Source: Deltaproteobacteria bacterium
GTDB taxonomy: Bacteria; Desulfobacterota; DSM-4660; Desulfatiglandales; Desulfatiglandaceae
Assembly (NCBI GenBank): GCA_019307645.1
Contig: JAFDJF010000043.1
Location: 1 to 8,959 of the forward strand
Direction: 5' to 3'
DNA: 8,959 nucleotides
This document shows, in pieces, positions 3,339 to 8,090 of this stretch. The translations under genes and the position numbers were made by a program. The notes under the pieces were generated by a model. It was given only the letters and a program-made list of their open reading frames with translations, was not told the DNA's origin and did not search any database. Positions within the stretch are counted from its first letter, which is position 1, and every line of letters starts with the position of its first letter.

Positions 3339-4631
3339 CTATCCGTTTTTCTCCCTTGCGACTGCCCGGTAGCCGATATCAGTGCGATAATAGACATTAT
3401 CCCATGTAATTTTTTTCACCAGCCCATAGGCCAATGCCTGGGCCTCACTGACAGACTTCCCAAGGGCTGTTGCACAAAGTACCCGCCCTCCACTGGTGAC
3501 AATCCGGCCTTCTTGGATCTTGGTGCCGGCATGAAAAACCTTAACCCCTTCCTGGTTCTGGTCGGAAAGTCCCGATATCACATCGCCTTTGCGGTAGTCT
3601 ACCGGATAACCTCCTGCGGCCATTACGACGCCCAGGGCAACCCGGTCGTCCCATTCTGCCTGGATTTGGTCAAGGCGACCGTCCAATGCGGCCTGACACA
3701 GTTCAACGAAATCAGACTTGAGCCGCAAAAGAATGGGCTGAGCTTCGGGGTCGCCGAAACGGCAGTTGTATTCAAGCACTTTGGACGTGCCGTCGGCGGT
3801 TATCATAACACCGGCATATAAGAACCCGGTGTAGGGATTCCCTTCTGCGGCCATACCTGTAACGGTCGGTTCGATAACCTCTTTCATAATCCGGCCATAT
3901 ATTTCAGACGTCACTACCGGGGCGGGTGAATAGGCGCCCATTCCTCCTGTATTCGGGCCGGCATCCCCGTTGTCGCGGGCTTTATGATCTTGAGATGTGG
4001 CCAGGGGCAGGATATTTTTCCCGTCAACCATGACAATAAAGCTGGCCTCTTCTCCATGCAGATATTCTTCGACGACCACCCGATGCCCGGCTTCACCAAA
4101 CGCGTTTCCTGTCAGCATGCCTTCAACCGCGGAAAAGGCCTCAGCTTCAGATTGGGCAATGATTACCCCTTTTCCGGCAGCAAGACCGTCGGCCTTGATA
4201 ACAATGGGCGTTCCCTGCTCTCGGATATAGGCCTTTGCCGACTCTATCTCGGTGAAATTTTTGTATGCGGCAGTTGGAATATCATGGCGCGCCAGGAAAT
4301 CTTTGCAGAATGCCTTGGAACCTTCCAACTGTGAGGCCCCGCGGGTAGGCCCGAAACATCGCAGGCCGGCGTGATTAAAGGCCTCCGCAATGCCTTCCAC
4401 CAGCGGTGCTTCAGGACCGACGATGGCAAGGTCTACTTCTTCCCGGCCAGCGAAGTCAACCAAATCGGTTATGTCTGACGCCCCGACACTGACATTTTCC
4501 ACCTTTTCTTCCCGGGCCGTACCGGCGTTTCCCGGGGCCACAAATACCTTTTCAACCTTTTGTGATTGCGCGGCTTTCCAGGCAAGAGCATGCTCCCTGC
4601 CACCGCTGCCAATAACCAATACTTTCATCAT
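3339..4631 (-). CDS. purD: Phosphoribosylamine-glycine ligase (GAR synthetase)
   Basis: PurD catalyses the second step of de novo purine synthesis in the cytoplasm: 5-phosphoribosylamine + glycine + ATP gives glycinamide ribonucleotide, ADP and phosphate. At 430 residues it is full length for the family. Seen: the N-terminal nucleotide-fold motif VIGSGGREHAL (6-16); GPEAPLVEGI (72-81); the ATP-grasp strand KADGLAAGKGV (146-156); the hallmark block from ATSQDHKARD through GPNTGGMGAYSP (211-236); and the metal-binding LEYNCRFGDPE (286-296). No damage is visible. Translation may begin at the first or second of two adjacent ATGs (4631 or 4628); an AAGGA sits 6-9 nt before them. It is transcribed alone, not in a pur operon: its promoter is predicted at 4951-4979 and a MITE-like element occupies much of the leader. 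Its stop lies 9 bp from the stop of the convergent radical SAM gene, with no obvious terminator between them. Confidence 0.98.
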   Translation of the reverse strand: MMKVLVIGSGGREHALAWKAAQSQKVEKVFVAPGNAGTAREEKVENVSVGASDITDLVDFAGREEVDLAIVGPEAPLVEGIAEAFNHAGLRCFGPTRGASQLEGSKAFCKDFLARHDIPTAAYKNFTEIESAKAYIREQGTPIVIKADGLAAGKGVIIAQSEAEAFSAVEGMLTGNAFGEAGHRVVVEEYLHGEEASFIVMVDGKNILPLATSQDHKARDNGDAGPNTGGMGAYSPAPVVTSEIYGRIMKEVIEPTVTGMAAEGNPYTGFLYAGVMITADGTSKVLEYNCRFGDPEAQPILLRLKSDFVELCQAALDGRLDQIQAEWDDRVALGVVMAAGGYPVDYRKGDVISGLSDQNQEGVKVFHAGTKIQEGRIVTSGGRVLCATALGKSVSEAQALAYGLVKKITWDNVYYRTDIGYRAVAREKNG

Positions 4632-4667: not shown

Positions 4668-4889
4668 AGTAACTGGTAGGTTGTTAGGTTCAGAGTTCAG
4701 CGGTTCACGGTTAATCCCGATTTATCGGGATTTTCTTCATGTTTCCAGAGCGACATAGCGTGGTCTCTGAATTTTGTGTGCAAAACCGTTTGGCATATCA
4801 AAAACCCGGATGAACAGGGTCTTTGTCTAAAGAATAGAGCCCCTCCTTCATCGCTTTAACCTTGAACCCTGAACCGTGAACCAGTTACT
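4668..4889. mobile_element. MITE-like element with heptad repeats, inserted in the purD leader
   Basis: This is a 222-bp non-coding element. Its ends are perfect 10-bp inverted repeats, AGTAACTGGT (4668-4677) and ACCAGTTACT (4880-4889). It is flanked on both sides by the 6-bp direct repeat GATGTA (4662-4667 and 4890-4895), which looks like a target-site duplication. Just inside the ends are 7-bp-period runs of GGTTCAx (4687-4712) and the complementary xTGAACC (4860-4882), including an 11-bp perfect inverted match (4702-4712 with 4872-4882). The core holds a compact hairpin at 4713-4732. No transposase is encoded, so it would have been moved in trans. It lies between the purD promoter and the purD start codon. 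Confidence 0.72.
4713..4732. repeat. Short perfect hairpin inside the heptad-repeat element
   Basis: AATCCCGA (4713-4720) and TCGGGATT (4725-4732) form an 8-bp perfect stem with a 4-nt TTTA loop. On the plus strand it is followed by TTTTC, so it resembles a weak intrinsic terminator there, but no gene reads into it from that side. In the purD direction there is no U-run. Confidence 0.6.
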
Positions 4890-4895
4890 GATGTA

Positions 4896-5306: not shown

Positions 5307-5347
5307 ATTATACCTACCTCATAATAAAGGATCAATGGACACTACTT

Positions 5348-5369
5348 AGGTTCAAGGTTCCCTGAACCT
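5348..5369. repeat. Heptad-type palindrome upstream of rpsU
   Basis: AGGTTCA (5348-5354) and TGAACCT (5363-5369) form a 7-bp stem around an 8-nt loop that itself contains another AGGTTC. The word matches the GGTTCAx heptads of the element in the purD leader, so it may be a remnant of the same repeat family. It would sit in the rpsU 5' untranslated region. Confidence 0.5.
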
Positions 5370-5394
5370 GATAACCTGCGTAGAGTTACCAAAT

Positions 5395-5430
5395 AAAAAA
5401 AGCACCTCGATTACCATAGAGAGATGCTTT
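5395..5430 (-). terminator. Intrinsic terminator ending the RNA upstream of rpsU
   Basis: On the minus strand AGCAUCUC (5428-5421) pairs with GAGGUGCU (5408-5401), 8 bp with one G-U pair and extendable by flanking A-U pairs. A run of U at 5400-5395 follows immediately. This is the clearest rho-independent terminator in the window. It ends 88 nt before the rpsU start codon. Confidence 0.85.
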
Positions 5431-5484
5431 AGCTCGCCTTCAAAGTCAGAAATGTCTTGTGTGAAACAGCAGGGGATCAGCCTG

Positions 5485-5499
5485 TTATTGACTGGTCAT
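5485..5499 (-). other. Four-codon ORF behind a perfect Shine-Dalgarno sequence
   Basis: On the minus strand AGGAGGTGA (5514-5506), fully complementary to the 16S rRNA 3' end, is followed after 6 nt by ATG ACC AGT CAA TAA (5499-5485). The GTGAAA part of this site can pair with TTTCAC made from 5461-5466, so the ribosome site can be partly sequestered. It may be a leader peptide or a ribosome-binding decoy; translation is not shown. Confidence 0.4.
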
Positions 5500-5728
5500 C
5501 GGATTTCACCTCCTGAACTCCTTTGAAAGGCTTGAAAGCACTCAATCAAGAGATCTAATAGATTTAAGGGGTATGCCGGCTCTGTGGGTCCGTAAGGCCG
5601 TTCATTAGACGACCCACCTGGGTATATTCCGGTCAAATTTAATCACCCCCTTTTTTACGTAATCCTACGAACCCGGAACGAAATTTCACGCTGTCATTCA
5701 CGAATTTCTATCGGATTCATAAATACTT

Positions 5729-6981: not shown

Positions 6982-7845
6982 TTACCGCAGCATGACAACC
7001 GTCCCAAACCGCCCGGTCTTCCCCTCGCCACGGTAGGAATAGAATAAATCTGTCCTGCAGCGGGTGCAGATCCCGGCAACCTCAATATTGTCTTCCCGGA
7101 GCCCCGCCCTCTGAAGCTGCCAACAACTGGCAGCCCAAAGATCAAAGTGGTTTTCCTGAACCATAAAACGTTCAAATACTTCAGGAAAAATATCTTTATA
7201 GCTGACAAATTCTGAGCAGCAGGGGCCAAGAGAAGGACCGATAGCAGCCAGCAGGTCTGATTTTTCACAGCCAAATTCCTCTTTCATCCGTACCACGACA
7301 CGCCTCAGGATATTCTTTACATTCCCCCGCCAGCCACAATGAACATTGGCAACCACATTTCGATTCGGGTCATAGATGATAGTCCCCTGGCAATCAGCCT
7401 GCTTCACCAAAAGGGCAATCCCCGGTACGTCTGTTATCATGGCGTCCGCAGATGAGGCTTCATTGTATTCCGCAGACTTGTTTTGACCCAGGACAAGAAT
7501 GCCATCGCCATGAGACTGCTTCATGTGCACAATGTCTTTTGCCTTAATGACGTTTCGGATTTTTCTTATGTTTTCTGCTACATTCTCCTGCCGGTCACCT
7601 ACTGAATAACTTATGTTCAGCGTGTTAAAAGGAGGATTGCTGACACCACCATGCCGGGTAAAAATTCCGTGCATGAGTTGCCGGCGCGAGGAAAGCCTCG
7701 GGAACTGGAAAAAGGGGATCTCTTGTCGGACTGATTTTAAATCAAGTAGACTTGAGTTGCGCATTTTTGAGAAAAAGACAGGTAAGAAGAGACTGATTGG
7801 AGGGCCTGTCAAAGTCCTTGGTCGTGCATCCTCAATCAACCACAT
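6982..7845 (-). CDS. pgeF: PgeF/YfiH family protein (peptidoglycan editing factor, polyphenol oxidase-like)
   Basis: This is a YfiH/CNF1-like cytoplasmic enzyme. Family members use a Zn/Cu-binding His-Cys-His site; they have been reported as laccase-like oxidases, purine nucleoside phosphorylases/deaminases, and as a factor removing wrong amino acids from peptidoglycan precursors. Seen: HGIFTRHGGVS (59-69), QSHGD with His112, KQADCQ with Cys152, ANVHCGWRG with His169, AIGPSLGPCC (201-210), and the family C terminus LFYSYRGEGKTGR. The site is complete. The start is uncertain. The longest frame (287 residues) starts at 7845, but its first 27 residues do not look like the family. Starting at the ATG at 7764 gives about 260 residues, the usual length, though neither start has a good ribosome site. 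The gene lies directly downstream of the SRP RNA on the same strand. Confidence 0.94.
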   Translation of the reverse strand: MWLIEDARPRTLTGPPISLFLPVFFSKMRNSSLLDLKSVRQEIPFFQFPRLSSRRQLMHGIFTRHGGVSNPPFNTLNISYSVGDRQENVAENIRKIRNVIKAKDIVHMKQSHGDGILVLGQNKSAEYNEASSADAMITDVPGIALLVKQADCQGTIIYDPNRNVVANVHCGWRGNVKNILRRVVVRMKEEFGCEKSDLLAAIGPSLGPCCSEFVSYKDIFPEVFERFMVQENHFDLWAASCWQLQRAGLREDNIEVAGICTRCRTDLFYSYRGEGKTGRFGTVVMLR

Positions 7846-7867
7846 GACAGAGAAAATTCAGCCACCT

Positions 7868-8090
7868 GGAGGGAAGAGTTAGATTCCGCCACGACACATG
7901 CTTTCTTAGTTACCGCTGCTTCCTCCCGGACCTGACGGGGTTCGTAAGTGCCTGTTACGTGGGGTCCAAATCGTCTCCAAGGTACTGAAAAAGAACCCTG
8001 ATCAAGGATCTCATGATGGACGTTCAACCCCGCATAAGCGGATTTCGGGTTACAGGGCACCGCTAGCTCCCCGTCTAGCACGACCAAGGT
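7868..8090 (-). ncRNA. ffs: Signal recognition particle RNA, large (Alu-domain) type
   Basis: This is the RNA core of the SRP, which with Ffh targets nascent membrane and secreted proteins. Seen on the minus strand: the universal helix-8 block at 7936-7915 (GUCAGGUCCGGGAGGAAGCA followed by GC), with a GGGA tetraloop in place of the usual GGAA. About 130 nt upstream is an Alu domain (8084-8030) that closely resembles my recollection of Bacillus subtilis scRNA: GUGCUAG, GGGGAG, UAGCGGUGCCCUGU, then AAUCCGC. Helix 5 is supported by CCACG/CGUGG pairing around helix 8. The ends are approximate (plus or minus 15 nt) because no promoter or terminator marks them. It lies between hup and pgeF on the same strand, so it may be processed from a longer transcript. 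A minus-strand ORF that crosses it (7836-8087) is spurious. Confidence 0.92.

Follow-up and report, generated by a model that had tools for sequence, protein, structure and literature searches.

A probable ribosome-operated transcription attenuator with an extended Shine-Dalgarno sequence upstream of rpsU in one class of deltaproteobacterial genomes

The 8,959-nucleotide (nt) stretch of DNA analyzed here (positions 1 to 8,959 of contig JAFDJF010000043.1, assembly GCA_019307645.1, Deltaproteobacteria bacterium; hereafter the window) carries on its minus strand a segment of about 330 nt between a promoter and a terminator, directly before rpsU, the gene for ribosomal protein bS21 (S21). Comparison with related genomes suggests that this segment probably serves the rpsU mRNA as its 5' leader and acts as a transcription attenuator operated by the ribosome. 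The leader contains an extended Shine-Dalgarno (SD) sequence (SD1), an upstream open reading frame (uORF1), a second SD (SD2) with a very short frame (mini-ORF) near the uORF1 stop, and an antiterminator that uses one arm of the terminator. We class it as a ribosome-mediated attenuation variant on a ribosomal protein gene and do not assign it to any named family. Its parts in the window, those of the proposed helix H1 included, are as follows.

5756-5729, minus strand: leader promoter, TTGACA-16-TATACT, agreeing with 11 of 12 consensus positions
5653-5642, minus strand: SD1, AAAGGGGGUGAU, able to pair with GAUCACCUCCUUU at the 3' end of the 16S rRNA, one of the pairs being G-U
5650-5644, minus strand: H1 5' arm, within SD1; 93% of cells paired and no two-sided change, hence weak
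5636-5496, minus strand: uORF1, 46 codons, TTG start, with counterparts in relatives
5617-5584, minus strand: window hairpin GUGGGUC/GACCCAC (5617-5611 with 5590-5584), read from the sequence
5573-5567, minus strand: H1 3' arm, UACCCCU, which can mask SD1; from RNAalifold and pair counts
5544-5534, minus strand: antiterminator 5' arm, UGAGUGCUUUC, inside uORF1, pairing with 5430-5421
5530-5524, minus strand: inner antiterminator helix, 5' arm, CCUUUCA; from RNAalifold and pair counts, 71-93% of cells paired
5514-5507, minus strand: SD2, AGGAGGUG; all 26 aligned sequences have AGG, and at least 90% of them keep the U that follows
5499-5485, minus strand: mini-ORF, ATG ACC AGT CAA TAA (MTSQ), its ATG overlapping the uORF1 stop (ATGA)
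5442-5437, minus strand: inner antiterminator helix, 3' arm, UGAAGG; from RNAalifold and pair counts
5430-5395, minus strand: leader terminator, AAAGCATCTC / GAGGTGCTTTTTTT, seen in the sequence and kept in relatives
5430-5421, minus strand: shared arm, AAAGCAUCUC, the 5' arm of the terminator and at the same time the 3' arm of the antiterminator; from pairing tests across loci
5408-5395, minus strand: terminator 3' arm, GAGGUGCUUU, and U-run; from the sequence and relatives
5306-5121, minus strand: rpsU, ribosomal protein bS21, 61 amino acids; Pfam PF01165 Ribosomal_S21, 60.1 bits

A DNA search of 99 relatives of genome G002 gave a match in 78 genomes, mainly within rpsU itself, and 72 rpsU upstream regions, the window included, were gathered from one class of deltaproteobacterial genomes. 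Left out were two duplicates (L061 and L062), three rows with little or no upstream sequence (L058, L084 and L131) and one that ends with its contig (L101). The leader, recognized as an SD1-type motif followed by a terminator, was found in 54 of the 72 regions; 4 were truncated (L058, L084, L131 and L101) and 14 were without the SD1 motif. Terminator counts over 51 loci omit L086, L095 and L107, and counts over 49 loci also omit L088 and L127, which are without uORF1 as defined below. Identity clustering of the loci was uninformative at thresholds of 0.55-0.65, the 99% level of shuffled sequences being 0.62; thresholds of 0.66 and 0.70 were used, giving 29 and 34 clusters, respectively.

At an E-value of at most 0.1, a covariance model (R1) built from 26 leaders recovered 49 of the 54 loci, a count that includes the 26 training sequences. 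Its match table over the upstream regions held 52 distinct sources of 71, and the matches were short in some loci (L088, L095 and L122). Under stricter filters, R1 matched 36 of the 85 genomes in the class of G002, once in each, and all 36 matches lay upstream of rpsU. In an even sample of the phylum, R1 under stricter filters matched 7 of 297 genomes, all seven of them class members that were also matched in the class search. A further 52 regions before rpsU, of which 50 came from outside the class and two from its members L164 and L165, were checked over their last 290 nt, by motif and by eye; the leader was found only in L164 and L165. Viral contigs gave no match to a gapped leader pattern, and a plasmid search gave no leader match. 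Within these collections, the leader appears to be a trait of one class.

The near-consensus promoter and the terminator around some 330 nt before rpsU had already been described in the initial annotation of this DNA, and both are borne out, as is rpsU by its Pfam match. A promoter with at least 10 of 12 consensus positions was found within 160 nt upstream of SD1 in 39 of 49 loci, the window included, against 1.0 expected from shuffles; its distance from SD1 was not constant among loci. A terminator stem with a U-run before rpsU was located by script in 51 loci and by eye in L086, L095 and L107. The terminator scanner did not report that of the window, which has a loop of 12 nt where the scanner maximum is 8. 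In 27 of 51 loci, at most 50 nt separate the end of the stem from the rpsU start. So short a gap could hardly accommodate a promoter together with a ribosome site, and rpsU is probably transcribed through the leader terminator. The gap exceeded 50 nt in the other 24 loci. That of the window, at 93 nt, is longer because a short GGTTCA/TGAACC palindromic repeat sits between the terminator and rpsU; such repeats were seen by eye at about 5333-5370 and also at 4680-4890.

SD1 is far stronger than the SD of rpsU. The 16S rRNA 3' end was ...GGATCACCTCCTT in three of four relatives searched, and SD1 is therefore able to form about 12 pairs with it. The SD1:16S duplex had a mean energy of -20.0 kcal/mol (-22.1 to -16.8; duplexfold, 52 loci; -19.5 in the window), whereas the SD of rpsU averaged -8.2 kcal/mol (-16.2 to -2.9 over 52 loci; window -9.1), and SD1 was the stronger of the two in 52 of 52 loci. 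Among seven other gene starts tested in the window, the strongest SD was that of purD (-13.7). The mean unpaired probability of SD1 fell from 0.37 to 0.17 once its CCCC partner was transcribed and was lower in 43 of 51 loci. Thus, initiation at SD1 may be confined to a brief time window.

Behind SD1, a uORF1 of at least 25 codons, starting 12-17 nt from the first G of GGGGG and about 45 codons long, was found in 52 of the 54 loci. Its start codons were ATG (25 loci), TTG (11), ATA (8), ATT (5) and GTG (3); the 13 of 52 that were ATA or ATT all lay at offset 13. Given that allowing several offsets and codons favors the finding of frames, a control with other frames and a count by clusters matter here. 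The frame reached at least 35 codons in 49 of 51 loci, compared to 5 of 51 in each of the other two frames; this count precedes the final reading of L086 and L119, which gives the 52 of 54. At least half of the members had a frame of at least 35 codons in 25 of 29 sequence clusters. The distance from the uORF1 stop to the shared arm was 20-85 nt with a median of 43, the value of 20 belonging to L119 at an alternative start. In the window, at about 5530-5496, alignment by eye revealed one extra base before SD2 compared to close relatives, as also in L066, and in consequence uORF1 stops at the mini-ORF start rather than about ten codons later.

Further analyses revealed that the uORF1 frame is kept while its peptide is hardly conserved. 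The ratio of nonsynonymous to synonymous changes (pN/pS) was 0.75 overall within groups of close loci, and changes were spread nearly evenly over the three codon positions (302, 247 and 280). The window peptide had no match in Pfam, the one peptide search made and with this peptide only, and no common codon run was noticed, by eye, in the listed uORF1 peptides. With a hardly conserved peptide and no such run, an amino-acid attenuator of the trp type is not supported. Two other readings were dropped, a new small-protein family because of the weak peptide constraint, and an RNA free of frames, proposed since some loci were seemingly without a start codon, because AUA or AUU at the fixed offset opens frames of similar length.

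SD2 (GAGGU or AGGAGG) is positioned near the uORF1 stop. Together with an ATG frame of 1-6 codons it was found in 38 of 49 loci, against 1.6 expected from dinucleotide shuffles, and with GTG starts allowed the mini-ORF was present in 23 of 29 sequence clusters. The forms of the mini-ORF are diverse (ATGTAA, ATGTAG, ATGTGA, ATGGTCTAG, ATGAGATAG and others), some in the uORF1 frame and some not. We noticed by eye that L067, L069, L073, L095 and L107, which have no ATG mini-frame, seem to use an AUU or AUA start instead, such as ATATAA after GAGGTAATATCC; these are the same codon types as in uORF1. From the SDs and the kept frames, we infer that both uORF1 and the mini-ORF are translated.

The fold of the window RNA was only slightly better than those of shuffled sequences (z of -1.49, 7 of 100 shuffles equally good), and the case for the leader was therefore built on comparison rather than on folding. 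Unconstrained RNAalifold with RIBOSUM scoring on 26 sequences returned four helices, namely H1 (SD1 with CCCC), H2 (a hairpin early in uORF1), H3 and H4 (the antiterminator). In this alignment (A1), 88.3% of cells pair, compared to 84.9% in shuffled alignments and 42-61% when the partners are slid; the covariation score was 0.227 vs. 0.178 shuffled, and 33 cells had two-sided changes vs. 12.8 shuffled. None of 500 shuffles reached the observed pairing, covariation score or two-sided count. A larger, model-fitted alignment (A2), which leans towards structure by construction and includes two weak extra matches, in L073 and L067, had a score of 0.198 vs. 0.141 shuffled (0 of 500) and 88 vs. 28.9 two-sided cells. 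Most two-sided changes are in H2, at 7 of 9 pairs in A1 and 8 of 9 in A2. H2 is variable in sequence, position and strength, and 14-18 of the 54 A2 rows have no letters at its pairs. The consensus H2 falls in the window at 5634-5626 with 5596-5588, where 3 of 9 pairs are non-standard, and the GUGGGUC/GACCCAC hairpin is the probable window version of H2.

The pairing of the shared arm with a site in uORF1 was also examined free of any alignment. Compared to shuffles, the mean z was -1.90 in 25 loci and -1.63 in 26 diverged loci that were not used for the 26-sequence alignment, with z below -2 in 12 of the 25 and 10 of the 26. When the arms were swapped among the 26 diverged loci, the loci's own pairs averaged -14.6 kcal/mol and the permuted ones -12.2 kcal/mol, and 0 of 5000 permutations did as well. 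Variant arms in which both partners have changed include GGAUGC/GCAUCC and GAGGGCUUUC/GAAAGCACCUC. The best antiterminator site was inside uORF1 in 48 of 49 loci; it was at codon 29 in 27 of 47 anchorable loci and at codon 33 in the window. As one arm is used by both the terminator and the antiterminator, the two structures are mutually exclusive.

These results change part of what the initial annotation had drawn. It had placed no protein gene in this stretch, which in fact holds uORF1 and the mini-ORF, both with counterparts in relatives; besides these two frames, it had overlooked SD1 and the arm-sharing antiterminator. Most of its stems are peculiar to the window: promoter aside, the region upstream of SD1, with the proposed 5' three-stem domain (about 5722-5660), was unaligned in 22 relatives (by eye), and the proposed alternative pairing ACCCA/TGGGT falls in a part that is variable among relatives. 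The element itself is real. The suggested S21 autoregulatory leader comes close to the reading favored here, in that the element would be a leader acting in cis on rpsU, with helices that covary and a terminator serving as attenuator. Covariation in the rpsU upstream regions is given above for A1, and an Rfam 15 scan gave no family above the gathering threshold in the window leader or in 16 relatives; at E-values up to 5, the window had three sub-threshold matches, the best with an E-value of 0.24 and on the opposite strand.

Partition-function models of 49 loci indicate how such an attenuator could work. Before the terminator 3' arm is made, the shared arm was paired upstream with a mean probability (P) of 0.74. 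With a ribosome placed over the antiterminator arm, mean P dropped from 0.74 to 0.43 and was lower in 43 of 49 loci (from 0.86 to 0.05 in the window), whereas a ribosome modelled at the uORF1 stop left a mean P of 0.72 (0.86 in the window). Masking of the mini-ORF (41 loci) or of the uORF1 stop by a ribosome, or of SD1 by a 30S subunit, hardly altered the antiterminator (mean P of 0.72-0.73), and no role of the mini-ORF therefore emerges from the model. Given that a ribosome over the arm lowers upstream pairing, translation through the arm should favor termination and its lack should favor readthrough. Without a ribosome on the antiterminator 5' arm, the antiterminator would form first and the polymerase would continue into rpsU; with a ribosome on that arm, the shared strand would be freed, the terminator would form and rpsU would be off. 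The sign of regulation would depend on the timing of ribosome and polymerase and on the action of the mini-ORF.

As for the signal, S21 is a late-joining and exchangeable ribosomal protein located near the SD:anti-SD helix, and 30S subunits with and without it should therefore differ on SD1. If S21-replete and S21-poor 30S subunits use a 12-base-pair SD with a weak start codon differently, feedback on S21 would follow. We tentatively propose that the leader senses the condition of 30S subunits, and chiefly their S21; this is plausible, though we would not yet bet on it. The more specific proposal, in which the leader reads ribosome composition because 30S subunits with and without S21 differ on the 12-base-pair SD with its poor start codon (UUG, AUA or AUU), and the antiterminator/terminator switch converts this difference, along with the start-stop mini-frame, into rpsU transcription, is speculative and rather unlikely in this full form.

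Several observations weigh against an attenuator of this kind. At the level of presence, R1 at an E-value of 0.1 misses L097, L100, L114, L119 and L129 (5 of 54), L088 and L127 have no uORF1 as defined, and the ATG mini-ORF is absent in 11 of 49 loci. Of the 85 class genomes, 76 carry between 1 and 9 copies each of the SD1 12-mer; such SDs are therefore rare, yet not reserved for the leader. At the level of structure, RNAalifold with default scoring on the 26 sequences recovered H2 only in part and placed SD1 opposite the shared arm, and on 46 sequences it gave one short pairing only, again of SD1 with the shared arm. As SD1 and shared-arm positions hardly vary, comparison cannot decide on this pairing. 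H1 changes only from G-C to G-U, and its complementarity is barely above that of shuffles (mean z of about -0.6). The swap test was weaker in the close A1 set (55 of 5000, 25 loci), and the best partner of the shared arm lies off the usual site in L072 (at SD2), L080, L116, L119 and L129. The full-length RNA favors the terminator (mean P of 0.79, median of 0.89, 49 loci), and readthrough would therefore need to be kinetic. A tightly coupled ribosome may leave uORF1 before the terminator is made, in which case the sign could reverse. Last, the literature points in different directions. In Flavobacterium johnsoniae, whose bS21 autoregulation works via an extended SD, ribosomes without bS21 favor the extended SD of rpsU, according to the relevant passages of McNutt et al. 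(2023, PMC9976891). Authors working on S. aureus note that E. coli bS21 would hinder an extended SD helix (PMC13009471), and according to a review it is E. coli bS21 that provides for the pairing between the 16S 3' end and the SD (PMC10931766). The three sources agree on a link between S21 and SD pairing and disagree on its direction.

Of the other explanations, the one nearest to the proposed attenuator keeps the ribosome as operator and has it sense the general state of translation (initiation factor 3 (IF3), temperature or antibiotics) rather than S21 specifically. The 13 of 52 loci that start uORF1 with AUA or AUU, the codon type through which IF3 is sensed at infC, and mini-ORFs of 1-6 codons would fit this, but all 36 class matches stand at rpsU, so that the regulated product is S21; we regard general sensing as somewhat unlikely, though worth keeping in view. 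A classical ribosomal protein leader, in which free S21 binds H1/H2 and turns the antiterminator into the terminator while the frames matter little, is improbable. It agrees with the occurrence of R1 matches only before rpsU and with the covariation of H2, and S21 has been proposed to bind a non-ribosomal RNA, OLE (PMC12286853). However, it leaves unexplained the openness of the frame (49 of 51 loci vs. 5 and 5) and the mini-ORF (38 of 49 vs. 1.6 expected), and H2 varies in sequence, position and strength and has no consensus form in the window.

Two further explanations would separate the element from rpsU. A small-protein gene of about 45 amino acids, with its own promoter and terminator and before rpsU by chance, could claim that promoter, a strong SD, a terminator and the open frame in 52 of 54 loci. 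The pN/pS of 0.75, the even spread of changes over codon positions (302/247/280), the absence of a Pfam match for the window peptide, the AUA/AUU starts in 13 of 52 loci and a terminator stem at most 50 nt from rpsU in 27 of 51 all argue against it, and we consider it very unlikely. An independent, trans-acting structured small RNA, with rpsU served by its own downstream promoter, had also been suggested by the initial annotation. Its boundaries, a promoter and a terminator, and the gap of more than 50 nt to rpsU in 24 of 51 loci would suit it; but the other 27 loci offer scant room for a promoter, 36 of 36 class matches are at rpsU and the frame is conserved, which leaves it hardly credible.

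The 14 regions without SD1 (L105, L106, L112, L118, L120, L121, L123-L126, L128, L130, L132 and L133) have features of their own. By eye, most have a strong promoter, an SD of the GGGAGGTGA type about 75-90 nt before the rpsU start and, after this SD, a hairpin resembling GCTAAG..CTTAGC, with a start codon that has no clear adjacent SD. The rpsU query matched twice in each of G041, G055 and G067; of the two G041 copies, that at C105 (L096) has the leader and that at C187 (L105) does not. Elsewhere in the window, the large bacterial signal recognition particle RNA (Rfam RF01854, 130 bits) lies at 7822-8083 on the minus strand. Relatives of the window PurD (3339-4631, minus strand) include those of L001, "Deltaproteobacteria bacterium isolate GMC6_bin_6_sub" (77% identity), and L004, "Desulfobacteraceae bacterium isolate BH30" (72%). 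PurD matches one deltaproteobacterial metagenome-assembled genome at 77%, and most of the following matches are labelled Gammaproteobacteria; horizontal transfer of purD is possible.

If the ribosome-composition proposal is true, the leader would be a specialized-ribosome sensor that acts at the level of transcription and a second, independent solution to S21 feedback besides that of Bacteroidota. In the literature examined, keeping S21 in step with ribosomes has been described only for Flavobacterium and its relatives, and the rpsU leader adds a second architecture of another kind, the parts of which can be tested. It also provides a natural example, kept in numerous genomes of the class, of AUA- or AUU-started leader frames and of SD-led mini-frames of 1-6 codons, and the function of such frames in bacteria becomes directly testable.

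Control of infC by IF3 is exerted through an AUU start codon. The rpsU leader resembles infC in having non-canonical AUA/AUU starts at a gene of the initiation machinery and differs from it in that AUA/AUU here starts a leader frame and not the regulated gene. Like the mgtCBR leader of Salmonella (PMC3641672), it combines two short leader frames with alternative stems that control downstream transcription; compared to mgtCBR, it has an intrinsic terminator, a second frame of only 1-6 codons and a hardly conserved uORF1 peptide. With the ribosomal protein leaders treated in the main text of Eckert and Weinberg (2020, PMC7247131) it shares a structured leader, a ribosomal protein gene and covariation. 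That main text has no occurrence of rpsU, bS21 or S21, and the main texts of a survey of premature terminators (PMC2965389) and of a survey of noncoding RNAs in 50 genomes (PMC11109978) have none of rpsU or S21, the supplements of all three being outside the search. Open-access literature, covered by titles, beginnings of abstracts and passages, with subscription papers and supplements outside its scope, yielded no rpsU attenuator and no S21 leader with frames. A further close parallel is that of Flavobacterium (PMC9976891), where a very strong SD is likewise tied to rpsU, below -13 kcal/mol there by that study's own method and about -20 kcal/mol here by duplexfold. The SD of rpsU itself in the loci studied here (mean of -8.2, window -9.1) does not reach the Flavobacterium level of -13 kcal/mol. 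In contrast to Flavobacterium, where the extended SD belongs to rpsU and control acts on translation, the extended SD of the leader described here is on the upstream frame of a putative attenuator.
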